Assembly (NCBI RefSeq): GCF_036785885.1
Contig: NC_092326.1
Coordinates: 186,001-250,000, forward strand
Reading direction: 5' to 3'
DNA length: 64,000 bases
From: Coffea arabica
Lineage: Eukaryota > Streptophyta > Magnoliopsida > Gentianales > Rubiaceae
Below, one piece after another: positions 6,990 to 60,505 of the stretch (within the stretch, counting starts at the first letter, position 1; the number at the start of each line of letters is the position of its first letter). Both the position numbers and the translations under genes were made by a program. Under the pieces are notes generated by a model, which had not been told where the DNA came from, ran no database searches, and was given only the letters and a program-made list of their open reading frames with translations.

Positions 6990-7507
6990 AATGTGTTTGT
7001 TATTTATGTTAATTTTATGTGATTTTATGTTTAAATTATGTGTTTGAATTATCTTGTTGTTTTTCTTTTGTAGGTATTTGAAATAGAAGCAAAAGTGACC
7101 AAATGAGGTGAAAAAGACGAAATTTGATCACAGAACTCCACTCCTCAATTTGAGTAAATGTTGTTTTTGATTCGTTAGAAAGGGATAAAATGCATGTTTT
7201 GATCATTTTACATATGCATTCATTGATATTTTTGACAAAATAATGATCTAGAATGCATTTTGAGTAATTAGGGTAAAAGCATAATTTTTGAAACTTTAAG
7301 AAATTTCTGTAGAAAAACTGCAGAATGAAGAAAATGCGAGCACAGAAATACGTGAGCTCAAGTTGCATTTTCATGAGTCGCGTATTCATTTCTGCAAAAA
7401 TAAAGAAGAAAACACGATCTTCAAAATGCGACCTCAAGTCACGTTTTCAAGAGTCGCATATTTGATCCGGCAATTTTTCAACTGGAAATGCTAGGTCCAA
7501 AACTTGA
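6990..7507. other. Non-coding retroelement sequence with CGCGAC-type palindromes
   Basis: There is no gene. The stretch 7330-7470 carries repeated near-palindromic motifs (AATGCGACCTCAAGTCACGTTTTC and relatives) like those at 8700-8765 and 11740-11945. The sequence 'TTTTTGTAGGT' near 7066 resembles the early part of a family X LTR, so this may be the start of a second, diverged LTR. Confidence 0.35.
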
Positions 7508-9443: not shown

Positions 9444-9460
9444 AACTCCCCCATACTTAA
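9444..9460 (-). other. Polypurine tract of family X
   Basis: On the minus strand TTAAGTATGGGGGAGTT immediately precedes the LTR start. Upstream is the characteristic GAGGACAAGCAATG, typical of the 3' end of Athila/Tat internal regions. Confidence 0.65.
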
Positions 9461-17890: not shown

Positions 17891-17984
17891 TTATGACTAT
17901 TGGAGATAATAAGTAACAACTTGTAACCCTCAATTTGAAAGTGATAATAAAACTGATGATGATCTTGAATCTTTCATTGAAAAA

Positions 17985-18197
17985 TTGCATGATAGTTTGA
18001 AAGAATCTTATGCTAGAAATAAGGGATTAAAACACAAAATTAATTTTCTTCTTCAGGATAATACACGTCTTTTTCAAGAAAATAAGAAGTTGAAAATTGA
18101 AAATGATTTCTTGAAAAGAATGAGATTGATTTACAAAATAAGCTTGACAGAAAAACAAGACTTTGTGAAATGTTCAAAGAGGAACAAGGTGATCTGA
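17985..18197 (+). pseudogene. Copia gag-pol linker, coiled-coil remnant
   Basis: About 70 codons rich in Lys, Asn, Glu and Leu with heptad-like spacing. They sit between the zinc knuckle and the protease, where SIRE-type elements carry a coiled-coil segment. An in-frame stop ends it. Confidence 0.4.
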
Positions 18198-18579
18198 AAA
18201 GAAAAATGGATAATCTAAATAAGTTTCTCCAATATAAGAAATAAAACTGCTTTCAAGAAAATGGAAGAAATCTTCATCTTGGCACTTATGAGAAGATGAT
18301 AAATTCTGGTGCAAATGATTTTACTGTTTGTAAGAAAAGACAAGTAAGATTTATTAAACCTATTTATCAAATAACTCATTGGTTATGTGTAATTTTTGTT
18401 TTAAAAAAGGTCACATAAAAAGCAATTGCTATGTGAGGAAGAACATGAGAAGAGGCATGAAATGCATGTGGATAGTTAGACATGATGTTAGCTCTCAAAT
18501 ACCCAAAAATGAAAAAGTATCGAATATTAGTTTTTGAACTCTTGAATAGGTGAATCTGGTGAACATCATTAAGAAATCA

Positions 18580-19350
18580 AAATGATTCATAGACAATGAA
18601 TATTCAAAACACATGACCGGTTATCCATCACAATTCATCAAATTTAAGCTAAAATCTAGTAGCACAATGACATTTGGAGATGACATGAAAACTAAAATAA
18701 TTAGAGTAGGAGATGTTGGTGAGATTGGTGAGATTATTGTTTATAATGTTCTTTTGATTGACAATTTGAATTATAACTTGCTAAATATTAGTCAATTATG
18801 TGATAGAAATTTGTTTGTTTTATTCAAGAAGTATGAGTGCTTAGTTATTGATTCAAAATTTAACATCATTTTCAAAGAAAAAAGATTCAATGACATTTAT
18901 GTCGTGATTCTTGAAAATATTATTTCCTCTAACTTTTAATGTCTTAAAGTTTCAAATGAATATCCTTGGTTGTGGCATAGAAGATTTTGTCATTTCAATA
19001 TGTATTTGTTAAAAGAAATTTTCAAAAAAGATTTTGTTAGAGATTTGTCAAAAATTAAGTTTGAAAAAAACAAAATCTGTAATACTTGTCAATTTGAAAA
19101 ACAAATCAAAATCTCTTTTAACCCCAAAAAATGTGTTTCTACCTTAAGACCATTGGAGTTTTTACATCTTAATTTGTTTGGTCCTACACAAATTGCTAGT
19201 TTGGGTGGTAAGAGATATTATTTAGTCATTATTGATGATTATTCTAGATACACTTGGGTGATTTTTCTTGGTCACAAAGATGATACTTTCAAAAAATTTC
19301 GTTTCCCTATTTGCAAAAGTTCAAAATCTGCTTGGTTTGAATATTGTTAA
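18580..19350 (+). pseudogene. Copia protease / GAG-pre-integrase / integrase N-terminal fragment
   Basis: 'FIDNEYSKHMTGYP' (about 18585-18627) aligns with the Copia protease region, but the usual DSGCS is altered to DNEYS, so the catalytic motif is lost. 'NVLLIDNLNYNLLNISQLCD' follows. After a stop near 18940 comes the GAG-pre-integrase zinc segment ('LWHRRFCHFN...CNTCQFEKQ'), then 'LHLNLFGPTQIASLGGKRYY' and 'VIIDDYSRYTWV' of the integrase core. The sequence ends at 19350, with no second half of integrase and no RT. Confidence 0.7.
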
Positions 19351-28254: not shown

Positions 28255-29560
28255 GGTAGGTTGGGTGGAATATAGATGTATTAACAAGATCAGGGTTTAT
28301 GTTGACAAGTTGATCAGTTTATAAACTAGTAATTAGTGATAATTACATGTATAAGATGATTTTCAAGCCACACAAGAAAAGACTAATAGTATAGAAATAA
28401 GCAGGTTATTGTTGTGTCCACTTGAAATTATATTAGAGGTCCATAATCATTCTAACTAGTTTCAGCACAACTTAGCTTTAGCTATAGATCAATTTAAACA
28501 CAATAGGATAGTTATCATAGATAGTAAGTAAACAGTGACTAACAATAAGATTCATGTTATAGACTTATTGACTGATCATCATCAATTTCTAGTTTATAAT
28601 ATTACTCACTTGTAGTGTACTTAATAAAGTTAGTGGTGCACCTACAATTAAGACATATTGTGTCAAAATATATGTGTTAGGTGATATTTATCATAAGGGC
28701 TCTTTTCTTAATATAATAACTATGTTGTGGCATCAAAAAACTAAAACCAGAGGTCACTAATTGAATTAGTAATGCACTAACATGTGATTAAATCACTTAT
28801 GGCTCAAAGATTAAAATCTTTCTTTTTTGTTAAAAGAAAATTAAAGCATGTAATTGTTGATCCCTGCTTGAAAAACTACATTAAGAGCAGATAAACTGGT
28901 TCGACTAACGGCCAAGCTTTTGGAGGCTATTCTTAAACAAAACATGTTAGTCCTACAATCACGGTAGAAAGTGCTAAGGTGCTTTAAGTTGACCAGATTC
29001 AATTTGCTGAAGTTGTAGATCTCACAGCTAGGATACATAGAACAGAGTTAATTCTTTGCTTAGTTGAGTCAACGATCAACTTGAGTCAAAGATATTTTAG
29101 CCCATCTATATTGTTAAACCTTTCTGTTTACCACATAAAATTACTTAGAAATGAGGATTTAGATTTAGCCATACTAGATATGTGTGAACAAGAATAAAAA
29201 TCTGAAACTTTTAAGCAATTGACTGTGGCCATCATATTAAACCACCATATTGTTAACATAAGTTAGAGAGTAATGATTTTAAACTTTATCATAGAAAAGG
29301 AAAATGTGTCAGCAATCAACTTAATTCCATAATCAATTGACTAATTCCCTTTTATATGTTAGTTGATTGTTGTTAAAAGTTATGCCCAAAAGTAATCATG
29401 TGCATGTGGTGAGTATGCAAAGAAGAAATTGTGGTCTTGTTGAGAACAATCACACCACAGCTTATTTGAATCCATCAACTGTGACAAATACAAGTTCATT
29501 AACTTGACTAAAATTGCATCCACTACTAAAGACTTCAGCAGAAGTAGTAATTAAATCACC
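28255..29560. other. Intergenic stretch with nothing recognised
   Basis: No open frame with recognisable family features, no terminal repeats and no tRNA. A 65-codon minus-strand ORF at 28841-29038 matches no family I know. Confidence 0.5.
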
Positions 29561-29718
29561 GGAATGCAGCTTTAGGATGAAATAAGTTCCCTTGTTGAAT
29601 GTCAATAACCTCAATTTTCTTTACTCCATTTTCTTTCTGTCGGTAGATTCTTTCTTTCTCCATTTTCCCCCTCCTTTTGTGCATTTTAGATTCTTTATTT
29701 CTTCCTCCTTTTGTACTT

Positions 29719-30590
29719 TTAGAATCCATTAAATTTAAGCGCTAATTGAGTACTAAACTTTATATTGAATTTTGGGAAAATGTATATATCACGTTTCAAA
29801 CCTTGTCTAAAGTCTGAACTTATTTTATCAAGGGATACAGAGTATTTATCTTTGAGTTGCATATGCAAAAAGCTGGAGTTGAATGACCACAAACCTCCAG
29901 GATGTGATGCAACTTGCCGTCTATCCTTGTTTTGCTCATCATCCTCAAGAATAACAGCTTTATTATCTCCTAGAGCTGACATTAAGTTGACACCACAAAA
30001 TTAAGACATGGACTTCTTTACTATATAGTATATTAGGAACAAAAATTGCATGATAACAAGGTTGTACGTAGGGCTTACGCTTTAAAAATGTCAATATTTC
30101 AATAAAAAGAAGATTGAACATGCTGCTCATACACCAATCCAGTACCAAGTTTCTATAAAAAAAATAGACCTCCGTCCTTAACAAGGGTCTTTCCAACTGT
30201 AGGTTCTGAGCCATTGCTGGGCTGTAAAACCAAAGTGAAGAACCATTACTAGAATTAATATCTGGCACTCAAGGGTTAGGCAGTGTTTTGTAAGAAAATG
30301 TCAAATTTCAGTGCAAATTCTTAGGAGATATTACCTTCAAGACTGAAGAACCCAATTCGAGAAAATTAGGTGGGGGTAAGGAGAGAGCACTCAGATTAGT
30401 CTTGTGATTGGCAAGGTGACGGGTGGATGCGTGGCAGGAGAGGCGAAGGGAAGAGGGATGGCAGAAACGAAGAGCGATGGGGGAAACGATGGTGGAAGCG
30501 GCAAAATGTTAGGGCGGAGGTAGAAGCGATGGTGGAGAGCAGGAGCACTTGCGGGTGAGAAAAAATGGTGAATTAGAATAGGAGAGAGGG
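29719..30590 (-). pseudogene. Possible 5' end of an unrecognised gene (minus strand)
   Basis: On the minus strand, 30590-30330 is unusually GC- and CT-rich for the region, like a plant 5' UTR. It ends at a donor-like CTTGAAG|GTAATATC. An acceptor-like TTTTACAG lies near 30225, followed by a short open segment. A second open stretch (about 29982-29719; 'MSALGDNKAVILEDDEQNKD', then 'ASHPGGLWSFNSSFLHM') reads like real protein sequence but I cannot place it in a family. No downstream exons are recognised, so it could be a truncated or captured fragment. Low confidence in the gene model. Confidence 0.25.
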
Positions 30591-30658
30591 ATGCTTGTAT
30601 ATTTGACCCACTTTTAATTTTTTACCCATGTTAGATCCGCGTGTATATCCATTTCTTA

Positions 30659-30848
30659 GAGTTTAGTTGTGGAATTGGAATTAGAATTCTTTTGGTCCAG
30701 TAAAGAATTCAATTCATGGAATTGGACCCCCATAGAATTTAAATTGAATTCTAATTCTTCAAGTGAAGCAGAATCCAAACAACAGAATTGGAATTGGAGC
30801 CCCAATTCCAATTCTAAACCCCAATTCTATGGGGAACCAAACATACCC
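30659..30848. mobile_element. Probable small MITE (GGGTATGTTTGG-type end)
   Basis: The segment is built from repeated GGAATTGG/CCAATTCC motifs in both orientations. It ends CCAAACATACCC, the typical end of PIF/Harbinger-like MITEs. The flanking trinucleotides are tta and taa, which are not identical, so the left boundary is uncertain. Confidence 0.35.
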
Positions 30849-30889
30849 TAAAGTTATTTCAAGTTGACGTTGCATGCGTATAAATATGA

Positions 30890-30922
30890 CTAGTTTTGGT
30901 GTGCCACGCAATGGCGTGGCAC
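30890..30922 (-). terminator. Helitron 3' terminus: hairpin plus CTAG
   Basis: On the minus strand a 9-bp perfect stem (GTGCCACGC / GCGTGGCAC) with a 4-nt loop is followed 7 nt later by CTAG, then T of the target. In rolling-circle Helitron models this structure signals the end of replication. Confidence 0.9.
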
Positions 30923-31404
30923 TGCCCAGACTTGTGTTTGGTATGTATGATTTTGGTGTTATTTACAAGGAGAGTAATATGTGGTGATATTGATGGAATG
31001 GTATGGCGGGGCTTAGGTGTTATAGGAAAAATGTTATTCAGTAATAGTTATTGTAACGTTTATTGGGGAGATTGAATTAAATGCCAGCTATTTTTGTAGA
31101 TATCCAGTGATTTGGAATGTATGATGTGTCAACTGACGGTGGCTGTGATATTTGCATGGTTGCCAAGTGTTTTTAGTTTACGACACTTGTATGTTTATAG
31201 GTGTCAGTTGTAGCATGTTTGCATGGGGATAGCATGTGAGCATTTGTGTTTTGTAGTAATATTTTGAGTGTTATAAGTATGTGCGTTTGATTTGGAGCTT
31301 TTGGGAGTGTAAAGGGAAAGTAGTTTGTTTGTAGAGGTGTACTTTTTGATTTTGAAGTCAATTTTTGTTTTGGTTTTTTTGGTTTTGTTTTGTGGTTCAT
31401 TGTT

Positions 31405-32479
31405 ATGGAGGAAAATATAATCTCTGTTAGTCAGTTGAATGTTGGCGTTCAGAGCTGGGTTGTTCGGGTTGTTCTTATTGAGAAAAGTTTTGTTCGTGGT
31501 AGTGTTAATATGGGTCGGCATTATCAACGATATGTTTTTGCTGATCAATTGGTAACGATTAAATTTTTTATTTTTTGTTATTCTTTTCATGTGTTGTAAT
31601 TTTGTTTATGAGTTAATTTTTTTGGTAGGGTGATCGAGTTCAAGCTATTGCATATTTTGCTGATCTGAATGTCCTGGATGAGATTTTGCAACTGTTTTCA
31701 ACGTATTATATTGGAAATGGGATTGTTCGTCGGTTAATGGATGATTCAATAATGCTTGGTTCCGTTTCGTTTGAAGTAACACTGACACAACATACTTTAA
31801 TCGAGCGGGTTCATGGTTTAGTTCAATTGCCAACTGATAATCTTTATAATTTTACTCGGTTCGGACATCTGCAGTCACTGAGGCATTCTCGTGATGCTAT
31901 AATTAGTATGATCTATAATTTTCCTTTTTGTTGATTTATATGTAATCATTTGCGAGCTAAATTTATATTTATTTATTAAAGGTTATTGTTTTTTTGTAGC
32001 CATTCTTGGTGTCGTGATCAAGGTGTTTCCATTGCATGTTTTTCTTTTCGGAAGCAGATATATGCGAGTTCAGGAGTTTTTGTTGATGAATGAAGAGTAT
32101 GAATTTTTTTTTAATAATATTTGAATATGTTATGTGTTGGTTTTTGATAATATTTTTTAATAGAATGATGCCAGTGGTATTTGCGATTTGGGAAGAATTT
32201 GTTGATACGGATGGAGCACATCTTGCGCAGATCGCACATGAGCATCCTATTGTACTGATTTGCAGGCCTAAAATTAGCCATTTTCATGGTAATAGATTTT
32301 TCAAATTGTTTGCTCAATAATAGAATTATTGTTCTTATCTTGTGTTTGATAGAATTTTTTTTTTAGGTCTTTCTTTGGCTACAGAAAGGAGAACTATTAT
32401 TATGTATGATGTTGCCATTCGTGAGGCTGATGAGTTGAGAAGCTGGTATGAGGGACTCGCAGGGGATGGACCAAATTGA
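31405..32479 (+). CDS. RPA1-like single-stranded-DNA-binding protein (Helitron cargo, short form)
   Basis: Five exons (31405-31551, 31629-31905, 32000-32096, 32164-32288, 32367-32479) join with GT/AG sites into one frame of 252 codons plus stop. The product looks like plant RPA 70-kDa-subunit proteins with two OB folds. Exon 1 holds 'SWVVRVVLIEKSFVRG' and 'RYVFADQL'. Exon 2 opens 'GDRVQAIAYFADL', then 'LLQLxSTYYIGN'-like 'ILQLFSTYYIGNGIVR', with the 'FEVTLTQHTLIERV' strand. The second OB fold is in exons 3-5, ending 'ADELRSWYEGL'. The zinc-ribbon third OB domain of full RPA70 is missing. Plant Helitrons commonly carry such genes, presumed to help handle single strands. All splice junctions are canonical, so it may still be expressible. 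Confidence 0.75.
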
Positions 32480-33259
32480 TGGATTGTGATGATTCTAGTG
32501 TTTATGTTTATTTTTTGTAGGTTAAAATGTTGTTGGTGAAGAGTGTATATAAAGTGGTTTTTGTTTGTTTATGGTTTTAGTTATGTATTGATTTGTATTT
32601 GGTGGGAAGAAAGTTTAGGTGTGATGATGAAGAAGAGTTGTACTATTTTGTTTTGTATTAATGGTGTAATTCGTTGGGATGTATGTTTTTTGGTCAATTT
32701 TGTTTTGTCTTGTAAAATGATTTCTTGGTTAAAAAATTAATGGTATATTAGTATATATATTATAGAATAATCTAAAATTAGTTTATTTTTTTAATTGAGC
32801 ATTTAACGGCGATGAAAGGAGTGTTAAACAATAATGTGTATAGTCACGAAGGGTGTTAATAGCTTGCAGTAGGATGCAAGTCAGTTAGCAAGCATATTTG
32901 ATTGCTAAAGTGTGAATCTTAGAAAGGATATAAGAAAGCATGAATAAATGCGATATAAGAGGAGCAAAAGATAAAAGATCTGTCATACGTTTCATAAAAC
33001 TAATGATAGTAGTTGTCTCTTGATATGAAAATAGCTGATACAAAACAGTGAGAGAAACTCATGGTTGGAAGTAGAAGACGAGTCATTGAGGAAGGACATA
33101 AAGTTACGAAGTTATGCTTCTTAATAGCATTTGATCGGCTTTAAAAGTAATATTTAGATAACTGGCCGAAGTAGCATGCAAAAGAGATTTTGTTTATATA
33201 AGTGTTTCTAGAGCAAAACCTGGGTTATCCTTGTGTTTGTTTACTGCATTGGTGATATG

Positions 33260-35658
33260 TTACTTATTTTTTTGTCGCTTGGCTGTAGTATCAGCAGGCT
33301 GCATTATCTGGCGTTTTTCAAGCTGGTGCAAGTGAGTTTCTTCTGCATCTAATGACGATTCAAAATGCTTTATAATGTCGTCTGGTTTGGCCGAGGATGA
33401 TGTGCATTCATCTGTTGAAGGGTGATTGTGTGATGATGAGGTTGTAGATATAGAAGAGTCTAGCAGCAGATGTGGATCTGTTGTTCTCTGTGCTGGGATA
33501 GGCAGGTAGGCAAGGATGATGTATCGTGGTGCTTGTGGAATGTCTGATTGCCTAGCAATATTTCGAACGTGAATGTAATATTTCTGGTTTTGGAGTCTTT
33601 TGTTGATGGCATGTAGATCAATAGATCGTTGCTGTGAAGTATATTAGGTTTGAATCGAACAAGTTAGTTGATGCTTATGAAATTAAAGCGAGGATAGTTT
33701 ATGAAAGAATTGTACCTCTTTTTGCATGTCAATTATAGCTTGTGCAGAGCTTCCAAGTAGTGATTGGGCATATTCATCCTCAATTGTTGCAGTTAGGATT
33801 GACGCTCCATCAAATAGTTGTGTTTCAAAGCGTAGTCTGTACAATTTGGAGTTATCAACAAGATAGCTATAAGTTGTATATATTTAAAGATGGATTGATA
33901 AAATGATAATATTTTCATTTGGTTATAGTTATATATAAGCATGTAAGTAAAAGAAGTATTTACTGCTGTACCTTGGTAGTGGTTCTGGGTATGCAATATG
34001 GCAGAAATTACAGGTGAAATGTCTTTTGATGGCTGCACCAGTAGGCCTCATGCATGTAGTATTAGGACAACTGAGAAAATAAAAGCGTTGTGCAGTGGTT
34101 GGAACTCGAATTTCTGCTTGTATCCAAAAAGATTTGTTCTACATAGATGAAAGAATGGAATAGTGAGGCAAGATTTTTACATTGTGAGAGTTTGTATCTA
34201 ATGGGAGTAGTTTGAACAGAAGTAATGTTTTATAAAGATCTCTAAAGCATAGGCCGTCATGGCTAGCTTTTTGGTAGAAGTAAAGCGTGCTAGACAGAAA
34301 TGTAATGGTTCTAATATTATGGGGAAGTAAAAAAATGTAAATTTTTTTTACCTGATAAGTGCTAGAGGTAATGGTGGCAATGTCATGCAGTTGGGTAGTG
34401 GTTGGTGCATGTACAATTTGGTGAGCTTTATCATACAATTTTTCTTGAATAACTGCTCGAGTATAAGCTGTATTTTCTTTCAGCTTATAATATAACTGTG
34501 TTAGACTTGGAAATATACAGGAAATAGGACAGGATAGTAATGTATTTTACCAGTTGTTTAGTGTTGTTGCTGCTGTGATCTGTGGGTTGTACAGGAGTAC
34601 GGTTGTTGCTTGTGTTCCAATTGATATAGCTAAGTGCATATAAGTCTCAGAAAATTAGTATCTTACATGTAGTTATTGTTTTAGTAATTGTCAAAGTATC
34701 AGGGATTTTTTTTTACTTACTGTGGTGAGAATTGATTCTAGGCCTCGCAATGATAATGATTGGTTGCTGTGACATCATTGATCTTAGAATAGCACCTTCA
34801 ACAGCCAGAAATTCATCCCACATAGTGAATATCATTGGTTTTTTCTGCATAAGGTGTCATAGCTTTAGTTTGTAGTATTAATCATGCTAGGAAATGGAAC
34901 CAGAAGAAAATTTTTTATGCTTACTCATGATTGACGACAGTAAACTCTTGAATTGTTGCGTATCCTTGGCCTCTTGGAACTGATCGAGATGGGAGTGTAT
35001 GTATTGCTGTACATAAGATATCTATGATATATAGAAGAGAAAAAATTTTGTTAAGTTAACTAATGGTCAGGTGATAGGATTTGTTACAGTGGCAAAATAA
35101 AGCAGAATAATAGTATACTCACTAATTTTTGCGGTTGCATCATTCATGAAAGTATGTAGGTCTTGAAATGAAGTGAATCTGTAGCAGTTATCGTATGGTA
35201 ATGCTCTTTCGCTTGGGACGGGTTCTATGAAGGTTCTTTTTGAAATTGTGAGCTGGTAGTTGGATGATGCAAGGTAGAATGGCATTGTTATTTTCGTGAT
35301 CCAAGCATTGCCAAGATAATAAGTAGAATGAAGTTGGAGTAGCGGATCGACATCATGGATGTCTCTTTCATAGATAGTAGCTTGAATAGTATTACTCTGC
35401 AATTGAGGAAATAAAAAGAAAATTTAGCAGAATCTGTTAAATGAAGGGTACGTTAAAACATAAATTTGGATCATATTAGTCAGTGGATGTTGTTCAAAAG
35501 GAATTACCTTCTGATCTGCGAGTACCAATCTTATATAAGGAGATCCGCCACTTTTGCTGAATCGTGTTGGTGTCTTCTCTATGATCAGCAATTTTGCAAA
35601 CCAATCAGTATTAGTATCAGTGAGCTCAGGAACCAGGACACATCTTTGCTCGATATCA
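33260..35658 (-). CDS. RPA1-like protein with zinc-ribbon C-terminal domain (Helitron cargo, long form)
   Basis: Minus-strand exons, approximate: 35658-35508, 35396-35123, 35021-34925, 34844-34721, 34629-34551, 34483-34352, 34138-33972, 33836-33716, 33631-33260. The first three match the plus-strand gene in layout; exon 3 is 97 nt in both. Exons 1-2 are the first OB fold ('DWFAKLLIIEK', 'YIRLVLADQ', 'LLQLHSTYYLGNAW'). Exons 3-5 are the second ('FTMWDEFLAVEG'). The exon at 34138-33972 carries a CX4C...CX2C zinc ribbon ('CPNTTC', 'CNFC') as in RPA70 domain C. The last exon is a hydrophilic tail. No ATG is found upstream of the first exon. The frame does not join cleanly at 34844 (six A's where seven would fit) or at 34551/34483, so the gene may be decaying. 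Alternative exon ends are possible. Confidence 0.6.
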
Positions 35659-35975
35659 CTGGTGAATCAAATATGCAGTCATGAAGAAAATAATGATAGG
35701 CAGGTTAGAAGATAAGATTTAGGATATGGAATGAGTAAAAATATATTCATCAGGTATATAAGATGGAGAAAAAATTCGAGGTAGGAATAGGTCTAACTGC
35801 TTTCAGCTAAAGTAAAAATTTCTTTATATACTATATTCTTCGTGCAATTTGTAGCTTGCTGGAATAGAGAGAGAGGCCTGATAAGGATTTTGGTATTTGA
35901 CATTCTTGTTGCTCGTGATAGGGCCACGTACAGCTGACCATGGGAAAATATTGGTTCTTTCAAATACAATCCTAC

Positions 35976-36478
35976 TGTTGCGGAAGCCCTACCAAAGTTA
36001 AGGTATAACGAGTAAATTATTGTACCTAAAATTGCAAAAATGGTAATTCCCAGGAAATATTTGGTGAGGCACACTGGCCTGCTTAAGTACCAATTTCCTA
36101 GACAGAATCACCTATATATGCACTTAATTGCACAATAACTCACTACAAATATACCTACAAATATAGCTACTAAATAGACAATAAAATAGAACACCAGAAT
36201 TTAACGAGGTTCGGCTAATTTGCCTACGTCCTCGGACACTACCGACAATTTAATATTTCACTAGAAGAAATATTACAAAGAGAGAGAAGAAAGCAAGTTA
36301 TTGGCTCTTGCTTGGTGTACTTGAATTGGTTTGTTTGAGAGCTATTTATAGTTTTCAAACAACCTCTCAAATGTTAAACTTAACCGATGTGGGATTTAGA
36401 AACTTAGGCCAAAGAATTCAAAGTCCTCAATTTTGGCTTGAAAAAGTCATCAATTGAGGCTTGGCTTTGAATTCAACA
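35976..36478 (-). repeat. 3' LTR of the Tork-type element
   Basis: 503 bp; the minus strand carries a TATA-like CTATAAATAGC at about 36345-36355. It is identical to the other LTR except at about four sites (for example near 36049, 36106, 36115 and 36353). Confidence 0.9.
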
Positions 36479-36562
36479 AATCTCCACCTTGGCATAATTT
36501 CTAATCCCACTAAAAATACAAATTTTTTTCCCTCAAATTCGGTGGTGTCTTCAAATGCGTTG

Positions 36563-39500
36563 TCACGCGCCAATCTTCAAGTTGTGCACAACATTTATCA
36601 AATTCAAACAATGTTGGAATTTGATAGTTGTCACAACCTTCGTAAGCATATCAGCAGGATTCTCCTTGGTCTGAATCTTTTGAAGTAGTATCGTACTATC
36701 TTCCAAAATCTTCCTCACAAAATGATACCGTACGTCGATATGCTTCGTCCTTGCATGATAAACTTGGTTCTTTGCTAAATGAATAGCACTCTGACTATCA
36801 CAATGAACTTTGATAGACTTCTGTCCAATTCCCAATTCATCAAGCAATCCATGAAGCCAAATTGCTTCCTTAACAGCTTCCGTAACTGCCATATACTCCG
36901 CCTCTGTAGTAGACAAAGCAACTGTTGACTGTAAGGTAGACCTCCAACTGACTGGTGCCTTAGCAAGTGTAAAAACATACCCAGTCGTTGATCGACGTGT
37001 ATCTTGATCTCCTGCGTAGTCGGAATCACAATATCCAACTACGCCTTGACCAATCTTCTCATCCCGCTCAAATACTAATCCAACATCTACGGTGTTCAAA
37101 ATATACCGTAAAATCCATTTCACAGCTTGCCAATGCTCCTTGCCAGGATCATGCATGTACCTGCTCACAACTCCAACTGCCTGTGAAATGTCGGGCCTTG
37201 TACACACCATAGCATACATCAAGCTACCCACCGCATTTGCATACGGTACCTTTGCCATATATTCTCGTTCTGCATCATTCTTTGGAGATAACGATGCACT
37301 AAACTTGAAATGAGGAGCAAGTGGAGTACTAACAGGTTTAGTCTTTTCATTCATACCAAACCTCTTTAATACTTTACTAAGATACTCTTTCTGTGTCAAA
37401 TAAAGCCTCCCCAATCTTCTATCTCTACTTATCTCCATGCCGAGAATTTTCTTGGCTTCGCCGAGATCCTTCATTTCAAACTCCCGACTAAAATGAGATT
37501 TCAATTTTTCAATCTCACCTTGATCCTTGGAAGCTATCAACATATCATCAACATAAAGAAGAAGATATATGTAGGATCCATCTCGTAGCTTGCGCAAATA
37601 TACACAATCATCATATTTGCTTCTTGTGTACCTTTGCCCCATCATAAACTTGTCAAATCGCTTATACCACTGTCTTGGAGACTGCTTCAATCCATACAAC
37701 GATTTGTCAAGCTTGCATGCCATCTTTTCTTTACCAGCAACTTTGAATCCTTCTGGCTGAGTCATGTAGATTTCCTCTTCCAAGTCACCATGTAAAAACG
37801 CAGTTTTTACATCTAATTGGACAAGTTCCAGATCCAATTGTGCTACCAAAGCCAATAAAATTCTGATGGAGGAATGTTTCACGACTGGAGAAAACACTTC
37901 GTTGTAATCAATTCCCTCCTTCTGAGCGTAGCCTTTAGCCACCAATCTTGCTTTGTAGCGAACACCAGACTTGTCAGGAAATCCTTCCTTCTTTGCATAT
38001 ACCCACTTGCATCCGATTGCCTTCTTTCCCTTTGGAAGACTGGTTAGCCTCCATGTTTGATTCTTATGAAGGGAATGTACTTCTTCATCCATTGCAATCC
38101 TCCACTTTTCTTTATCCGAACTTTGAGCTGCTTCATTGAAAGTGGCAGGAATATCAACATTTATGGTTGGGGATGCATAGGCCACTATATCAGCAAAACG
38201 AGCAGGTTTTCTGATTGTCCTCTTTGGCCTACTGGTTGCAATTGATTCATGTTGCTGTGAAAGTTCTTCAACTGGAACATTTTCTTCAGTTGATTCTTCT
38301 TCTACCATAGGAGTCCTTTCATCTACTCCGATATCCACTGCTGGTCTGATAATGCTTCTTTCAAACTCCATCTGCTTAGGAGTGCTCTCCACCTGTTGGG
38401 GAGTACTATCATTCTGCTGTACATCTACCTTTGTTAACATGGTAGATTCATCAAAGGTGACATCCCTACTGAAAACTATCTTTTTCGTTTCGGGACACCA
38501 AAGGCGATAACCTTTAATGCCTGTTGTGATCCCCATAAAGAGCGCCTTCTTCGCCCTTGGATCCAACTTTGATTCTTTAACATGATAATATGCAGTAGAA
38601 CCAAACACATGTAAGGAATCATAATCTGTACCAGGTTTTCCCGACCATTTCTCTAATGGCGTTTTGCCGCCAATAGCAGTTGATGGTAAGCGATTAACGA
38701 GGTGATTTGCATATGCTAAAGCCTCAGCCCAAAATTGTCTGCCCAACTCAGCATTGGACAACATACACCGAACTTTCTCCACCAATGTCCGGTTCATACG
38801 CTCTGCCACCCCGTTTTGCTGTGGTGTATCTCTGACTGTGAAGTGCCGAACAATGCCTTCATTTTCACAGACCTCCATGAACGGATCACTAGTGTATTCA
38901 CCTCCGTTGTCTGTTCGAAGGCGTTTGATCTTTCTTTCTGTTTGAGTTTCCACCATCTTTTTCCACTTGATGAAAATTCCTAATACTTCACTTTTCGCCT
39001 TCTTAGTATACACCCATACTCTTCGAGAGAAGTCATCGACAAAGGTAACAAAATAATTCTTGCCTCCCAAAGAAGTTGTTTTGGAAGGTCCCCACACATC
39101 AGAGTGCACATAATCCAAAATACCCTTGGTATCGTGAATTGCAGTGCCAAATTTTACCCTTGTCTGCTTTCCTTTGACACAATGCTCGCAAAAATCTAAC
39201 TTGCAAACACTGGCTCCTTTTAATAGTCCTTGATTCATCAGAAGATTCAAAGATTTTTCTCCGGCATGCCCTAAGCGCATATGCCATAATCTGGTTACTT
39301 TCAATTCTCGATCATCACTGGAAGCCACGGCCGCTACTCCAACAACTGCATTACCTTGATAGTAATACAAGTTATTATTTTTTCGGATTCCTTTCACCAG
39401 CACCAATGCACCTGAAATGATTTTCATCACTCCATTATATGCCGACACCTTGTAGCCCATTGATTCTAGTACTCCCACAGAAATGAGGTTCTTTTTCAAT

Positions 39501-40606
39501 TTTGGCACATATCGGACATCAGTTAGAATCTTAATTGATCCATCCTGATTCCTTAGCCGAATTGAACCAACCCCATTTGTTGCTAATGTGGTCTCATCTG
39601 CCGTGTAGACGACTCCACCTTCTTTTTCCTTGAAATCAAAGAACCATTCTCTATTGGACGTCATATGATGGCTACAACCTGAGTCCAATAGCCATGTACT
39701 AGAATGACCAGTAGGCATGACAGCTAATGAAAAATCTGAGTTTTGATCAATGCACTCAGATACATTTGAATCCGCAACAGCTTTTTCTTTGTCAGGTCTA
39801 CCCTTCAGTTTTGGGCAGTCCTTCTTCCAGTGCCCTTTCTCTCTGCAAAAGGCACACTCATCTTTACTTAGTCTGGCTCTTGACTTGGATCTTCTTCTCG
39901 TCCCCTTTCTCTGGTTTTGTGAGCGTCCTCTAGTTACCAGAGCTTCTGCTGCTCCATCTCTGCTATTTTGCTTGTCTTTTCTTCTGAGCTCATAGCTGTA
40001 CAGGGCAGAGCTAACTTCACTGAAGGACACCTCAGCTTTCCCATGGAGTAGAGTTGTTTCAAGATGCTCAAACTCCTCAGGAAGAGATCCCAACAACATG
40101 AGAGCCAAATCTTCGTCTTCAAATGTCACATCTAAATTCATCAGATCAGTGATTAACTGATTGAAATTAGTGATGTGATCACTTAGAGTTGTGCCAGGAA
40201 CATAAGTGAAGCGAAATAAACGCTTCTTCATGTTGAGCCTGTTCTGACAATTTTTCTTCAAGAACTTCTCCTCCAATCCAGTCCATAATTTATTTGCAGA
40301 GGTTTCTTTTGAGAACACATATTTTTGTTCCCTTGAAAGACACGATCGAATTGTACCACACGCTAAACGATTTAGCGTCCTCCATTCCTTCTCTTCAATC
40401 TCTTCTGATTTCTCTTTTTCGATGGCAATGTCTAGACCTTGATTAAAGAGCGCGTCTAGAATCTCACTTTGCCACATGCCGAAATGACCGGTACCATCAA
40501 ATGTCTCCACATTTAATTTTGTATTTGTCATAACATTTCTCGCCATAATAGATAATGACGAGCTTGTTGATGCTTGCATTGTAGATGAAGATCTACTTTC
40601 GGCCAT
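36563..40606 (-). CDS. Gag-Pol polyprotein of the Tork-type Copia element
   Basis: A 1347-residue single ORF, close to the 1328 residues of tobacco Tnt1. Order: gag (UBN2-type, about 30-210), zinc knuckle C251-C254-H259-C264, protease 'LLDSGCSHHMTS' (catalytic D308), integrase zinc domain (H442, H447, C473, C476), integrase core with D503, D566 and E602 (35 residues between the last two), reverse transcriptase (about 830-1075) with 'YVDD' at 1018-1021, RNase H with D1194, E1237 and D1260, ending about 1345. No stops, frameshifts or missing catalytic residues are seen. Made in the cytoplasm, it would package the RNA in virus-like particles and integrate the cDNA. The ATG at 40606 precedes gag directly and follows the PBS by about 115 bp. 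Confidence 0.95.
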   Translation of the reverse strand: MAESRSSSTMQASTSSSLSIMARNVMTNTKLNVETFDGTGHFGMWQSEILDALFNQGLDIAIEKEKSEEIEEKEWRTLNRLACGTIRSCLSREQKYVFSKETSANKLWTGLEEKFLKKNCQNRLNMKKRLFRFTYVPGTTLSDHITNFNQLITDLMNLDVTFEDEDLALMLLGSLPEEFEHLETTLLHGKAEVSFSEVSSALYSYELRRKDKQNSRDGAAEALVTRGRSQNQRKGTRRRSKSRARLSKDECAFCREKGHWKKDCPKLKGRPDKEKAVADSNVSECIDQNSDFSLAVMPTGHSSTWLLDSGCSHHMTSNREWFFDFKEKEGGVVYTADETTLATNGVGSIRLRNQDGSIKILTDVRYVPKLKKNLISVGVLESMGYKVSAYNGVMKIISGALVLVKGIRKNNNLYYYQGNAVVGVAAVASSDDRELKVTRLWHMRLGHAGEKSLNLLMNQGLLKGASVCKLDFCEHCVKGKQTRVKFGTAIHDTKGILDYVHSDVWGPSKTTSLGGKNYFVTFVDDFSRRVWVYTKKAKSEVLGIFIKWKKMVETQTERKIKRLRTDNGGEYTSDPFMEVCENEGIVRHFTVRDTPQQNGVAERMNRTLVEKVRCMLSNAELGRQFWAEALAYANHLVNRLPSTAIGGKTPLEKWSGKPGTDYDSLHVFGSTAYYHVKESKLDPRAKKALFMGITTGIKGYRLWCPETKKIVFSRDVTFDESTMLTKVDVQQNDSTPQQVESTPKQMEFERSIIRPAVDIGVDERTPMVEEESTEENVPVEELSQQHESIATSRPKRTIRKPARFADIVAYASPTINVDIPATFNEAAQSSDKEKWRIAMDEEVHSLHKNQTWRLTSLPKGKKAIGCKWVYAKKEGFPDKSGVRYKARLVAKGYAQKEGIDYNEVFSPVVKHSSIRILLALVAQLDLELVQLDVKTAFLHGDLEEEIYMTQPEGFKVAGKEKMACKLDKSLYGLKQSPRQWYKRFDKFMMGQRYTRSKYDDCVYLRKLRDGSYIYLLLYVDDMLIASKDQGEIEKLKSHFSREFEMKDLGEAKKILGMEISRDRRLGRLYLTQKEYLSKVLKRFGMNEKTKPVSTPLAPHFKFSASLSPKNDAEREYMAKVPYANAVGSLMYAMVCTRPDISQAVGVVSRYMHDPGKEHWQAVKWILRYILNTVDVGLVFERDEKIGQGVVGYCDSDYAGDQDTRRSTTGYVFTLAKAPVSWRSTLQSTVALSTTEAEYMAVTEAVKEAIWLHGLLDELGIGQKSIKVHCDSQSAIHLAKNQVYHARTKHIDVRYHFVRKILEDSTILLQKIQTKENPADMLTKVVTTIKFQHCLNLINVVHNLKIGA

Positions 40607-40736
40607 CTCTACAAATTATATTTAGTAGCTCCTAAATGTAGAGTAACAATAGCCCAAGAAATCTTTTCTGATGTGGAAGATCAGACCATGCTGCAACCAC
40701 AGAGCATACTAAGAAACCTCGAGCTCTGATACCAAT

Positions 40737-41239
40737 TGTTGCGGAAGCCCTACCAAAGTTAAGGTATAACGAGTAAATTATTGTACCTAAAATTGCAAAA
40801 ATGGTAATTCCCAAGAAATATTTGGTGAGGCACACTGGCCTGCTTAAGTACCAATTTTCTAGACATAATCACCTATATATGCACTTAATTGCACAATAAC
40901 TCACTACAAATATACCTACAAATATAGCTACTAAATAGACAATAAAATAGAACACCAGAATTTAACGAGGTTCGGCTAATTTGCCTACGTCCTCGGACAC
41001 TACCGACAATTTAATATTTCACTAGAAGAAATATTACAAAGAGAGAGAAGAAAGCAAGTTATTGGCTCTTGCTTGGTGTACTTGAATTGGTTTGTTTGAG
41101 AGCTATTTATAGTTCTCAAACAACCTCTCAAATGTTAAACTTAACCGATGTGGGATTTAGAAACTTAGGCCAAAGAATTCAAAGTCCTCAATTTTGGCTT
41201 GAAAAAGTCATCAATTGAGGCTTGGCTTTGAATTCAACA
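40737..41239 (-). repeat. 5' LTR of the Tork-type element
   Basis: 503 bp, adjacent to the initiator-Met PBS. Transcription of the element would start here and run towards lower coordinates. Confidence 0.9.
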
Positions 41240-44200
41240 CCTACGAAGTCAAGTGTTTGTCCTTGAGCCTTGTTGATCGTCATTGCAAAACACAGCCTTA
41301 AAGGAAATTGTGTTCTTTTAAATGGGACAGATGTGAATTCATCATCTGAGCACTCCAATGGAATCCGTGGAATAAAGACAGATTTTCCTTGGAACGATCC
41401 AGATGCAATCTCAGCATGGATAACATTGTTGTTGAACTGTTTGCATATTAATCAAGTGCCATTCGATAAGCCTTCTGTTGGATTTATGTTTCTGATCAGC
41501 ATTATAGGACAATTCCTTTTCAGCTTGAGCTCGTGCGGAGGCATCCCTTTTGGTGTTAATGAATTCAGAAAATCTTGAGTATCTCTTTGGTCTCGAGAAT
41601 CAATAGGTTGATCAAAACTGAGATATGTTTTTTTCTTCCCTGGAAATTTTTCAATCAATCTGTCATTGATCTCATGAACAAAATCATTACGCGTCATCAA
41701 GATTGCTCGATTAACAACTGCAGCTGGATTTATACTGAAGCTTTCCATGCTAGGAAAAACTACATTTATAAGTGTTTCGAGCGACGAATCATCATCAATG
41801 AATGGTATGTTCATTGATGCTGGTATATCAACCTCACCAGAACTGTTGATTTGTTGAGTTCCATTGCCAATATTGAGAAGGAATGTGCAAAAATCAGGAT
41901 CTTTGCGTGCTCTCATGTTTTGTTGAAGCCTTAATTTTGTCAGTTGTCGCCAAAGAGGAGAGTTAACAAAACTTGCATTGATGATATCTTGCTTGTGGCC
42001 TTTTGACACCACTGGTAGAGTCTGACGGAAATCACCACCGAAGACAATAATTTTTCCACCAAATGCTAAATTTGTTTGCATCAGATCCTGCAGCATCTCA
42101 TTGAATTTTTCAATTGATTTTCGCTTTGCCATAGAAGCTTCTTCCCAAATGATCAACCGTGCATTCTGAATAAGATGTGCAATGGCACTTTGTTTTCCAA
42201 CATTGCAAGTTGCAGCATCATCATCGTATAAAGGAATTTTAAATCTGGAGTGGGCAGTTCGACCTCCAGGTAAGATAGATGCTGCCACACCAGATGTTGC
42301 AGTAGCAAGGGCAATCCAACCTTTTGATCTGATTGTTGCAAGCAGAGTCTTGTATAGAAAAGTCTTACCGGTACCTCCAGGGCCATCAACAAAAAAAGCT
42401 TCTGATTTTTTGTTTAATACTGCATTCATAATTCTGTCGTAGGCTATTCTCTGGTCACCGTTTAGCTGATGCAATGCAGCAAGATCAACATCTAAGACAG
42501 GAATGCTCTTTTCACTTTCTATCTCTTTCGCGATGAGTTGTTTGATATTTCTTTGCGGAACAAAGCTGCTGAATCCGTAATCTTTCAAGGATTTTCCCAT
42601 AGATTGTAAGTAATTGTGAATAATCTGTAAGACTATCTTTTCAACATTAGCTTGGTCAATAGATTTATCTTGATGAATATCCTCAGACAAGGAATCTTGA
42701 TACTTGAGCCATATTTTTTCTGGATTTGTAGGTGTGCAGTAAGCTAAAAGGGCAGCAAATAGATGTCTTAAGGAAGATGGCATTTGATATAGAGTGGCTT
42801 CCTGAAGGCACAATTCAGCAGCGTCATCTGATTGTAGCAAACCAAGTTTATCTGCTGCTTGTTGAAATGTAGCATATGTAATCCCATCGATTGTTTTCAA
42901 TGCATGGAAAGAGGTTGGTTTCCGGATATGCATTAATAACATGCGTAAATAGTAGCGTTCTCCCTTAGATGGGTGAGTAGGAGCTAACCTGCCAATAACT
43001 TGTTTGTTTTTTCGATGATCCCATTGCTTCGTTGTCCTGTTCCAAACGAAATGTTCTGGAAATTCTGCATACAAACAGTTTAAAGACTTTGCATGATCAT
43101 CCTGCCTGTTCATTGCAAAAAATTCGGTTAACATTGTTGTTGAAGAAGTAGGATTTTGCAATAGACTTTCAAGTGGCCTATTTTCAGGAAATGCTAAAGG
43201 GTGTTTATTTTCAAGATGTACTTGAAGCAAAGTCACTGATGGATGTATTTCATTCAGATCAAATGCAAATATGCGCCACATAGCTTCAGGAGCAGATATC
43301 CATCTAGCAGCTACAAAGCTTTTAATTTCATCAAATGAGTGATCAACCTGAGTTTTATTGAGCTGATACAAGATTTTGTCATGACCTTTATATATATATT
43401 TGTAAATATACTTTACAGCTCGAACAGTTGAGCAAACTTCTACATTAAGATGACAGTTAAACTTTGATAATAGATAAGGATTATAGGGGACTACCCACCT
43501 GTTATCTAGATGATGACCACGAACTTTGACTGTTTTCTTGTCGTCGGAACGTTTGTATATAGGATATGAGTTGCTACTGTGACGTGTGGATTCATTGAAT
43601 TCTTTCGGATACTTGTCCTTGCAACCTATATTTTTTCTCATACATGGACATTTTGGATTCATTACTCCACATGGTCCATGCATCATATGCTTCACGACAA
43701 GACTATGTAAATATGGCTGATGATGACAATTAGGAAGTTCAGCACACACAATTCGATCATATGCTTGAGGGGAGTACATCTTGCTTCCTTGTTTAAGAAT
43801 GATAAGAAAATGAGCGTGTGGAAGGCCTCGTTTTTGGAATTCAATAATATACGTATATGCTGCAACCTTTCCAAAAATATGCCTCTTCGATAGCTCCTTT
43901 TTCAACATTTCTAGTTTGGCTCTAAAGACTCATGAGATCAGATCTGGACGATTCTCAACTTGATCAGTTTGTAGTAACTCATTCTTAATCTCTGGCCAAT
44001 TTTGATTGCATGTCATTGTCAAAAATATATCTGGCTTGCCATATCGCTGCACCAAAGCCATTGAATCCATATATCTACGTTTCATATCACGTGGTCCTCC
44101 AATAAATGATTGCGGCAATAAAATTCTTTTCCCAATATTTGAAGATGAAGCCTCTCCTTGAGAGATACTATCAACTATGCCTTGGTATAATTTTGTGCGC

Positions 44201-45900
44201 ATCTGGTTTCGTTTGTCAGTGTTTCGATGAAAATCAAGTCTTGTGGACTCAATTTTGACATACATATCAACCACGTACTGTTGTAGAAGTCGATCTATGT
44301 GAAGCAACATTGATCGATCATTTTCTCTGATCTGCAGCTTGTAGCAGTAATACTCTCGACATGAAACAGTTTTTCTCTTTCGTTTCATTTTTCTGATTGC
44401 TGCATATGGGGAAATAAGAAGTGTAAAGACATATAATCTTGTTTTTTGATCACCGTATAAAAAGATAACACAAAAACTTTTGGAAGTAACATAATTACCC
44501 TGATTTTCAGCATGGATAACATCATCTGCTGTTAAAGCTGAGCCAGAGAATAACACTTGCTCTCCCTGGCATGTTCTTTGTTGACAGGATGGATCATCGT
44601 TGTGTACAACTTTTTCAATTCCTGGATGCCAACCTGGTTCACCATTTGCAAATATCAAGGGATATTGTAGAGAATCATAACAGCCATAGTAATGCTTAAC
44701 GATTTGTGTTTTTCCATTTTTGCCATATACTTCAATATGCTTTGACATTAGTTGCTCAGAATCACTTGTTTCAGACCAAACACCTCCCACCTGTGAAACT
44801 GTTGGTTTATTAAAAGTTCGCTGATCAACGGATGGATTTGCTTCTAGAACAATTTTATAATCATCAAGATTGGGCAATGTTTGAAGTCCTCGAAAGAAGG
44901 CAGAATAAGGATTGACTTTCAAGATACTTTCGAGCTTACTAATGAGTGATTCAGCAAACCTGTTAGATAATGAAAGTATATTGCTTGTCTGATGATCAGT
45001 GTCAAAGAAATATAACTGAAGATTTTTTGGTTGTTCACCATCAGTAGGAATGAGCTGATTTATATAGTGATACATTTGTCCTTGGATTCGAAAAGTATAA
45101 ATTCCATTGTATGCTTTGCCAAGAGATTGATCTGTGTGGACTCCAATGGATGTAAAGGCAAATACGTTATTATAGCTTCTAACACATCGACGAAACTCTA
45201 TGGCATCTTCACTATTATCAAGATAAAGCAGCATAAGTTCTCTTGGCATCTCAGTTGGCACTAATTGAATCTCTCCAGAAGCACAGCAAAATCCTGGAGG
45301 TTCGAGATGAAAACGTTTTGCATTGCAATACTGACAGTTAGCAATTGCTGGTAATAAGCTAGGCTCAGTTGCAACAGCATCTAATGGATCCTTCTGTTTT
45401 TTCTTTTGGCGATTCCTCTTTTGATTACCTCGAGAGTCAAATGCTTTCTCTGTAGATTTCTGTCTTTTACCTTTGTTGATCATACCATCGACCATTAATA
45501 ATGATTGGCCTTGCTCTTTGCTTGTGTTGGGTAAAGTTGTCACTTCAGCTAAATCACCATCAACAGTAACAGCAAGATTATGTAATGTATATCGTAACTC
45601 ATCATCAGATCTTTCACCAGAAATTGGTACATCAAAGAGCATGGATTGAGAAATCTCGTCTGTTAAAGATATCTCAGCCACTTGCTGATTGGATTTACGT
45701 TGATCATTTCCAGAGATTTGATCAGCTACAATGGACTGGTTCATTACATTGCTAGAAATTTCACGATCATTAGAGCCAATAAAATGTTCATAATAAGAAT
45801 TAGCAGATAGAACACACCGTCTGTGCCGACCATCAGCAGACCCAACAATTTCTTGTGGAATCATATTTTCAGCGACACTAAACCCTGTAACTGCAACCAT

Positions 45901-47551
45901 ACATACACCACTACAAGGCTGATCTTTGTTTTTGCCTGTTGCAGCACGTCGCTGTCGCCGACGCCTTCTATTTTTCTCAATATATAGGTCTTCAAGAGTT
46001 CCATATTTTTTGGCTCACCCCATTATTGAGGAAGATAATAGAAATATGGCAAAGGACAACAAATTGGACCAAAAAAAAATACTATATTGACAAACAGAGC
46101 AACATTCAATGGACGACAATAAGATCAAAGCAACGAAACTAACAATAACACAGATCGCAAGAAGAACAAATAGACTCAAATTTGATGAAAGTTAGCTAAT
46201 ACCTAACTCTATTTATAATTATCAATTATAAAGATTTATATGCGCACCTTATAGCATCCATGACCTAAAGCAGCAACCTGTAAACCTAATAGCACGTTGC
46301 TGTTTCTGCTTTTCTTCCTGAAAATGAAAAGCAGTTAATACAAAATTAATACCAACAATAAGCATTGCTATAAACCAACATAGACAACAGAACGGCAATG
46401 AAAACAGAGAACAACGCTTGGAAAAACTAAAAGGAAATTATACAATAGTAAAAAATTCAATTTTAGAACGACGCCTAGCTAGCCAATTTGCATGGACAAA
46501 GATATCAGAAAAGAATCATATGCAACAGCCATTAAAGAAAAAATCGATTGCACGGAAGAATTTGGGAAGATTCTCTCAATGATAAAAACAACATAATCAC
46601 TAATATGAAAAAAAAAACCTATCCCCATGCATGTAACAGATATAGAAGAAAAAATAGCAGACTAACATGCAGCAATATATAAAGGTTGTGTATAAGACAA
46701 ACCAATATCAAATAAATCGAAAACAAAGGAAAGCGCATCAAGGTTCATGCAATAGCAAGTTTACAACAAATCAAGATTTATCAAAGGCCGCGCAATACTA
46801 AGTCTGCAAAAATCTGTCCATTATCGAAAAAAGATACTGGCTGATATGGTAAAAAGCAAAAAATAATCCCCATGCATGCAAAAATAATATGCAGAAGTAG
46901 AAGAGAACTTAAAAGAAAGAAGAAAACAAAATAACAAAAGCGACTGCAATTTTAGATAGAGCTCAGAGACCAACTAGAGCAAAAGGGAAGAATAAAAACA
47001 ACTCTGAGCAGAAAGGAAACAGAGCACTAACAAAGCAGAACAAAAGGAAACAACAAAAACGACTGCAATTTTAGATAGATTTTAGATAGATATATACAAG
47101 CCAACGTCCACTACGTCCATTTAGATGGATGGAAGCCAACATCCACTACGCCGAGCCAGCTCAACAATGACCGAACGCAGCATATGCAATGTAGCGCCAC
47201 GGAAGCACCAATAGCAGGACCCACTAAGAAGACTAAGAGCACAATGCACTAACAGCACTAAGCGCACCGACCGCAGAATAGTCACTGGCCCACCGTAGCA
47301 AAGGGCCCTAAAATTCCTGTAAATTACTGCAAGACTGTAACCAAAGAGCCCTCAGAGCACAACCCACCAAGACAGCCTAACCAAAGGCCCCTCAAATTGG
47401 TGTAAATTACCAACCGTAACCAAAGAGCCCTCAGAGCACAACCCACCAAGACAGCCTAACCAAAGGCCCCTCAAATTGGCGTAAATTACCGCAATAACCG
47501 GACCACAATTGCTACAGTAACTTGAGCTTGGTACTTTTATATCTTGTAAGA
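45901..47551 (-). other. Helitron 5' non-coding region
   Basis: Between the Rep-helicase ATG and the 5' terminus. Apart from the basic N-terminal extension (to about 46015) and the 79-bp tandem repeat, I see only low-complexity A-rich sequence with scattered CAACAAAA motifs. It presumably holds the promoter of the transposase. Confidence 0.5.
47341..47492. repeat. 79-bp tandem repeat near the Helitron 5' end
   Basis: The unit beginning CCAAAGAGCCCTCAGAGCAC starts at 47341 and again at 47420, nearly identical. A partial, diverged unit precedes it (about 47308). It lies within 210 bp of the Helitron 5' terminus. Confidence 0.8.
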
Positions 47552-48080
47552 AGTAGTCAAGCATGGAAACCTAATCATAAGTTTTTATTCAGAATTGTAT
47601 AAACCTTTCACCATCTGATCAAATAGAAAATGTTCAACTTGTACCTTAAACATGGTATATACACTAAGCATTATCTACTCCAACTTCTAAGATCCTTGAA
47701 TGCTTTAACAGAGTACTTTTGAAGCATTGAACTTGACCAGAAGATATTGAACTCTAGAAGTAATGTATATTGACAATTCTTCTTTTGAGGAAAAGGAAAT
47801 TATCAACAGTCACAAGAAAGAATTCAAAAAATTGGAACCATTTAAAATTTTCCTTGTAATACAAAAGACTATACATTAAGGGTAAATTCACAAAAGACTA
47901 AGATCCTTGTATGAAGAGTAAATATATATAGCTTGCTTAAGGGTCTGCTCTTAACTAATCTTTTGGATTTACTTTTGACTTTCAGATTTAGAAAATTTAT
48001 TTAGTACACACGGATATGGAAAATCATTATATTGGAATTTCTTTTACTAGTCTGATAGGTACAAAGAACTAACTCTTTTT
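47552..48080. repeat. Ancient local duplication, copy 1 (right flank of the Helitron)
   Basis: Aligns with gaps to about 49345-49790: shared AACCTTTCACCATCTG, AATAGAAAATGTTCA, GATCCTTGAATGCTT and AAGCATTGAACTTGA. The left Helitron flank (30848-30889) aligns to 49310-49352. No gene. Confidence 0.6.
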
Positions 48081-49304: not shown

Positions 49305-49790
49305 CTAAACTAAAGTAATTTCAAGTTGATATCGCATGTGGTTCGGATATGAATTAGTCAAGAACGAAAATCTAATCCTCATTTTCTATTCAAAAGTTTC
49401 TAAACCTTTCACCATCTGCCGGAATAGAAAATGTTCACCTTGCACCTGATACAATAGTATATTCTCTAAGAATAATTTACTATATATCAACTTGTATGAT
49501 CCTTGAATGCTTCAACATAGCATATATCTTAAGCATTGAACTTGACGAGAAGACATTAAACGCTAAACTAAGATTTATCTTTTGAGAAATAAATGAAAGT
49601 TAAATTATCAACTGTCGCAAGGTTATATATAGATTATTAAACCAACTACGAATATTTTTCCCCGTAACTAAAGACAGCAGATCAGTTTGGTGGAGTAAAC
49701 ATCCTAGTTTATGCAGATATATAAGAGTACTATATATGAATGTACCTTTCTATTCTGATTAGTAAAACTCTTTTTTTTAGCCCCAGTGGT
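49305..49790. repeat. Ancient local duplication, copy 2 (empty Helitron site)
   Basis: Contains the uninterrupted equivalent of the Helitron target: TTTCAAGTTGA...GGATATGA directly joined to ATTAGTCAAG, where the other copy has the Helitron between ATATGA (30889) and AGTAGTCAAG (47552). Confidence 0.6.

Positions 49791-51578: not shown

Positions 51579-60505
<8,927 letters not shown>

Follow-up and report, generated by a model that had tools for sequence, protein, structure and literature searches.

A decayed RPA-bearing Helitron in the genome of Coffea arabica, its ends and its relatives

The element, its ends and its target site

We analysed a 64,000-nucleotide stretch of the Coffea arabica genome (NCBI RefSeq assembly GCF_036785885.1, contig NC_092326.1, positions 186,001 to 250,000), here called the window, from whose first letter all positions are counted unless another contig is named. 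Its minus strand holds a Helitron at 30890-47551, which contains a broken Rep-helicase gene, two RPA-like genes and a nested Ty1-copia retrotransposon. The whole span of 16,662 bp consists of 11,393 bp of Helitron, 5,264 bp of copia and 5 bp of duplication. From the sequence and from alignments of other copies, the 5' terminal 60 bp were placed at 47492-47551, starting with TC at 47551, and the 3' terminal 60 bp at 30890-30949, ending with CTAG at 30890, so both termini follow the TC/CTRR rule of canonical Helitrons (Helitron1). A predicted hairpin with a 9-bp stem and a 4-nt loop (30901-30922, minus strand) lies 11 nt from the 3' end, within the 10-12 nt seen in Helitron1. Its folding energy is -13.6 kcal/mol, compared with a shuffle mean of -5.59 (z -4.45; one of 200 shuffles as good). 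Direct repeats were found just inside the 5' end (46902-47490) by self-comparison and copy alignments. They give overlapping matches in several copies, and their number seems variable.

The assembly searched for relatives comprises 1.198 Gb in 131 contigs, with the window at C17:186001-250000. Contig C18 carries an empty site, i.e., a version of the locus in which 30849-30889 (100%) is contiguous with 47547-47698 (96.7%), and joining the window's flanks at 30889|47552 gives a sequence identical to this site at 184 of 188 positions. The insertion made no target duplication, and the target dinucleotide is T|T, one of the two (A|T and T|T) expected of Helitrons. The window itself contains a diverged Helitron-free relative of the site at 49310-49571, recognised by its match to the joined flanks: a left part of 29 bp (25 identical) plus 13 bp and a right part of about 210 bp at 77.5%. 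The alignment is gapless at the 30889|47552 junction, and its one gap, of 1 bp, lies 13 bp further left. This relative agrees with the C18 junction but is far more diverged. A preliminary description of this DNA had reported the CTAG terminus, the 9-bp hairpin, both ends and a homologous uninserted site within the window. All of these proved to be real, with C18 providing the better evidence for the uninserted state.

Searching with the 3' end gave 23 matches. Besides the window and the flank on C18, these were 21 rows representing 20 places, and CTAG is followed by T at all 19 of the 3' ends examined (19 of the 20 places; C9 excepted). Stretches of 10-20 kb were fetched for 16 regions, and three others (C14:43584508, C19:13524435 and C5:8366652) were seen as short stretches only. 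Every one of the 16 copies read at length stops at CTAG|T, and 12 of them share the 5' TC as well (C22, C20a, C5a, C21, C3a, C5b, C3b, C20b, C15, C3c, C1 and C9). Eleven of these are 1.4-3.3 kb long, and C22 is 11,940 bp. Their flanks are unrelated, and their targets are A|T in 11 cases and T|T in one. The 5' alignment starts exactly at TC in 10 of the 12 and, by chance, four bases earlier in C22 and C15. No 5' end was present in the fetched stretches (10-20 kb each) of C19, C4, C6 and C14; for C14, the 5'-end search found one about 21 kb upstream. The 3' alignment of C14 halts 42 bp before the end, where CTAG was located by motif.

A search with the 5' end yielded 41 matches. Of these, 16 start exactly at 47551 and 29 at query positions 38-47, and no match other than the window and C18 starts before query position 38. 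The terminal motif is present in 13 of 15 loci scanned, which leaves 11 copies once the window and one duplicate are set aside, and the flanking base at these 5' ends is A in 10 and T in one. An 11-bp overrun past CTAG, seen in many copy alignments, was rejected as AT-rich chance matching when the sequences were read. The preliminary description had proposed such an end search, expecting copies to share both ends, to sit between A|T or T|T and to have unrelated flanks, and the 12 both-ended copies bear this out; among the copies examined, none runs past the ends into a common flank, setting aside two 3' ends on C6 that share one through a local duplication.

Several points weigh against this placement of the ends. 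On C18, the joins 30888|47551, 30887|47550 and 30891|47554 score equally to 30889|47552, so the ends are fixed to about 2 bases and it is the TC/CTRR rule that chooses 30889|47552. T|T is the rarer target among the other copies. C18 matches the window only at 30849-30889 and 47552-47698, with the match lost to the right of 47698, and the adjoining 2.56 kb of the window (28288-30848) correspond to 32 bp on C18. Because the match is broken on both sides and the locus lies amid a repeated array, C18 may carry a close paralogue of the site. Contig order and the matching positions (216,889 and 144,094) suggest that C17 and C18 are homoeologous. With these points weighed, we remain highly confident that 30890-47551 is a canonical plant Helitron of the Helitron1 type with RPA-like genes, and that both its ends are as placed here.

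Genes of the element and the nested retrotransposon

The Rep-helicase gene occupies 35793-46023 (minus strand), with its natural stop at 35793-35795 and the copia element between 41240 and 35975. The frame at 41452-46014 has Pfam matches to Helitron_like_N and PIF1, so by homology a Rep (HUH) domain and a Pif1-type helicase are joined in one protein, here encoded by a broken gene. The frame also contains an HPHAHF-like stretch and YIYKYIYKGHD, which we take to be motifs of such proteins, the former of the HUH nuclease. Three in-frame TGA codons interrupt the gene, at 46015-46017 (codon 3), 43930-43932 and 41452-41454. Arginine occupies the second site in 103 of 108 homologue alignments and the third in 102 of 103; a single homologue reaches the first site, also with arginine, where C22 and C20a carry sense codons. 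Sense codons are found at all three sites in C22, and at one covered site each in C14, C19 and C20a. Across the 28 alignment columns with at least 90% arginine, 26 keep arginine in the window and two are TGA stops. The gene resumes past the copia, with many of 120 homologues aligning to approximately 41227-41236 and again from approximately 35975-35993. Given three TGA codons and a copia in the helicase domain, the uninterrupted Rep-helicase of an autonomous Helitron is lacking: a whole protein cannot be made from this copy, which is not autonomous.

The nested Ty1-copia (35976-41239, minus strand, 5,264 bp) was delimited by its long terminal repeats (LTRs), Pfam matches and target duplication. 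The LTRs (40737-41239 and 35976-36478) are identical at 499 of 503 positions, i.e., four differ. The 5-bp duplication CCTAC is at 35971-35975 and 41240-41244, and a polyprotein of 1350 aa is open at 36563-40615 (minus strand), as read from the frame and Pfam, with integrase before reverse transcriptase as in Ty1-copia. At the commonly used plant rate of 1.3e-8 substitutions per site per year, four differences in 503 positions date the insertion to about 0.3 million years ago, the Helitron being older. The polyprotein has a 99% identical counterpart (P0121), which is known from ENA contigs only, and named relatives from Xanthoceras, Hibiscus and Citrus.

Two RPA-like genes complete the set. The first (33260-35658, minus strand) is RPA70-like, as judged from a spliced model, Pfam and PDB, and was read as nine exons, with the first exon and start not fixed. 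It matches Pfam Rep_fac-A_C at 29.1 bits (cut-off 28.5) and human RPA70 at E 1.7e-9. Its frame slips by one base where exon 4 begins (34844); C22 and C19 have an extra base there and C14 does not. The gene therefore probably carries a one-base frameshift, and a homopolymer assembly error is a possible cause of the slip. For exons 1-3, dN/dS between the window and C22, C19 and C14 is 0.38, 0.18 and 0.21, respectively. The second gene (31405-32479, plus strand) lies opposite to the Rep-helicase strand and was modelled as five exons with GT-AG introns and an open frame of 252 aa. Its Pfam matches are below cut-off (REPA_OB_2 18.6, cut-off 27; DUF223 16.9, cut-off 24.6), so three of four matches for the spliced models fall short; Pfam runs on ten single frames of the region gave none above cut-off, and the spliced models scored better. 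An RPA-like gene inside the element is the mark of RPA-bearing plant Helitrons. The preliminary description had all parts in place, which is correct for the presence of the Rep-helicase and two RPA-like genes but not for their condition, since the Rep-helicase has three TGA codons and a copia, and the RPA gene on the minus strand probably has a frameshift.

An RPA-only mother element has been proposed for rice Mothra (PMC4683698). The plus-strand RPA gene could likewise still be under selection, so that this copy would serve other Helitrons as an RPA donor despite its dead Rep-helicase. The gene is open with all splice sites kept both in the window and in C22, and between these two dN/dS is about 0.11 for RPA and about 0.27 for the Rep-helicase. 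The contrast is reversed in the other copies, however: 0.30 for RPA and 0.23 for the Rep-helicase with C19, and 0.24 and 0.08 with C14 (the Rep-helicase gene is only partly covered by these two copies). The RPA gene is also damaged, as C19 has a 2-base deletion and C14 lacks 49 bases and has lost two donor sites, and selection before insertion accounts for the low dN/dS. We therefore consider the donor explanation improbable.

The length of the span and the unrelated insertion inside it could also suggest a composite, in which two neighbouring Helitrons contribute one end each, so that 30890-47551 would not be a single element. This is very unlikely, as C22 has both ends and an identical arrangement of parts without the copia, and 95.83% of 10,760 aligned positions are identical (counting alignments of at least 400 bp), the 12 both-ended copies combine these same two ends, and the one empty site lacks everything between them. 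Least credible of all is a working Rep-helicase whose TGA codons are removed by splicing or bypassed by readthrough: each of the three stops is a TGA at an arginine position, and the frame is otherwise free of shifts over 4.8 kb, but relatives have sense codons at these sites and a copia with LTRs and target duplication cuts off the last part of the helicase, and on the same grounds we dropped the idea of TGA as a recoding signal.

Relatives of the element and the 3' hairpin

C22, a full-length relative of the element, also has a broken Rep-helicase, with three 1-2 base deletions and a stop near 10469 of its stretch. The window is short by about 100 bp near 45440 (within the Rep-helicase gene) relative to C22 and C20a, and by about 95 bp near 32535 (outside exons) relative to C22, C19 and C14. 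We tried reading the former as an intron, but the extra stretch is ordinary sequence without clear GT-AG borders and contains a stop in C22, so this is unsupported.

A family scan using the second half of the Rep-helicase scored 55 of 1,686 candidates, with frameshifted copies scoring low, and within that scope it found no intact family member. The window aside, only C4:36018314, which has five stops, reaches at least 85% identity, and the next candidate is at 67%. Among the same candidates, other Coffea families include several Rep-helicases with open frames above 1,100 aa. Five frames share an equal score (1001.4 bits, 53% to the query), each open over 1148 aa (C2:53418640, C4:1389201, C4:74745584, C6:1078262 and C19:8218020), and seem to be another Helitron family that has spread recently. 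The best protein matches are the Coffea Rep-helicases P0001 (59% over the entire second half of the window's Rep-helicase) and P0031/P0032 (71% over 51% of it), which by sequence likewise belong to separate families.

The 3' hairpin was surveyed in the 16 other copies using one folding program on 45 nt. The stem is perfect in 10, has one mismatch in one (C1) and is lacking in five (C19, C4, C6, C14 and C9). Three of the latter (C4, C6 and C9) share 90-91% identity over the roughly 1.1 kb leading to CTAG, have unrelated 3' flanks and each stop at CTAG|T. They hint at a non-autonomous hairpin-less lineage in which this family terminates exactly without a 3' hairpin, a suggestion that we regard as doubtful. 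C9 has a normal 5' end, and none was recognised in the fetched stretches of C4 and C6, so Helitron-type movement is shown for one of the three, which weakens the case. At C6:47259501-47269500 (7067-10000), two hairpin-less 3' ends lie 1.3 kb apart with the same flank, i.e., a local tandem duplication. In Helraiser, deleting the hairpin reduced transposition to 8.8% and increased read-through (PMC4778049), and a fungal group of non-canonical Helitrons without a 3' hairpin has been described. In the literature searched, which was confined to Helitrons, Coffea arabica Helitrons and hairpin-less Helitrons, we found neither this family nor a plant lineage lacking the hairpin described.

Elsewhere in the window, an array of 0.5-3.7 kb repeated segments in both orientations, 80-91% alike, occupies 4473-28287 and is also present on C18, and the right end of 28288-30848 bears a short palindrome. 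Frames at 51718-60502 (plus strand; e.g., 59615-59890) presumably represent exons of a subtilisin-like protease, and those at 17227-19347 (plus strand) we take to be pieces of copia gag and integrase. Plasmid records contain nothing close to the right flank, which is what one would expect of plant DNA.

History of the element and comparison with known systems

By analogy with Helraiser, the Helitron would have moved by a rolling-circle route, in which an HUH/two-tyrosine nuclease nicks the DNA and a Pif1-type helicase unwinds it, with the hairpin perhaps helping transfer to stop at CTAG. The insertion itself was precise, at T|T and with no target duplication, and the same pair of ends has spread repeatedly. 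Since then, the Rep-helicase gene has gained three TGA codons at arginine positions, and a Ty1-copia has inserted into its helicase domain. CpG mutation may have produced these stops: relatives have sense codons at the sites, and 67 of the 449 differences between the window and C22 are of the CpG-transition type, which favours this origin. TpG/CpA is slightly raised in the Helitron (1.30, with 1.15-1.21 around it). The element's CpG content is unremarkable, however (observed/expected 0.57, not below the 0.35-0.59 of its surroundings), which tells against CpG mutation and leaves the case for it weak. The 1.4-3.3 kb both-ended copies must presumably have been moved by Rep-helicase supplied in trans.

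To our knowledge, Helraiser has no RPA gene. This bat element (PDB 7lcc) has a Rep-helicase homologous across the whole searched part (E 5.3e-170). It shares with the window element the TC/CTAG ends and a hairpin 11 nt from the end, but it is an animal element with demonstrated activity (PMC4778049). Plant Helitrons with Rep-helicase and RPA, such as the sister family of rice Mothra, resemble the window element in their TC/CTRR ends, their hairpin near the 3' end, their insertion at A|T or T|T and their Rep-helicase beside RPA-like genes, and rice Helitrons with both Rep-helicase and RPA are 8.1-15.5 kb long (PMC4683698). Relative to these, the window copy differs in having two RPA-like genes on opposite strands, a dead Rep-helicase and a nested copia. 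The Xuan-Feng Helitrons of wheat also have TC/CTAG ends, a hairpin 11 nt from the end, AT targets and non-autonomous members moved by an autonomous one (PMC13286980). Their member Feng8 was shown to be autonomous, whereas none of the window's family was intact among the candidates scored. The TC/CTAG ends and Rep-helicase fit Helitron1; elements of the Helitron2/Helentron type are marked by asymmetric terminal inverted repeats and by hairpins at both ends.

The window element is thus an ordinary, decayed member of the known RPA-bearing plant Helitrons. Its proposed role as a reference copy holds for the ends of the family but not for a complete copy, as the Rep-helicase gene is dead and a copia lies inside. 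For one Helitron family of a crop plant, the ends are now known to about 2 bases, supported by 12 both-ended copies and an empty site. The family also shows a familiar fate, with the death of its Rep-helicase and the spread of short relatives that keep both ends. If a full count confirms them, the hairpin-less copies would be a natural test of the role of the 3' hairpin, and if they are numerous, they would point to a second stop signal near the end of plant Helitrons.

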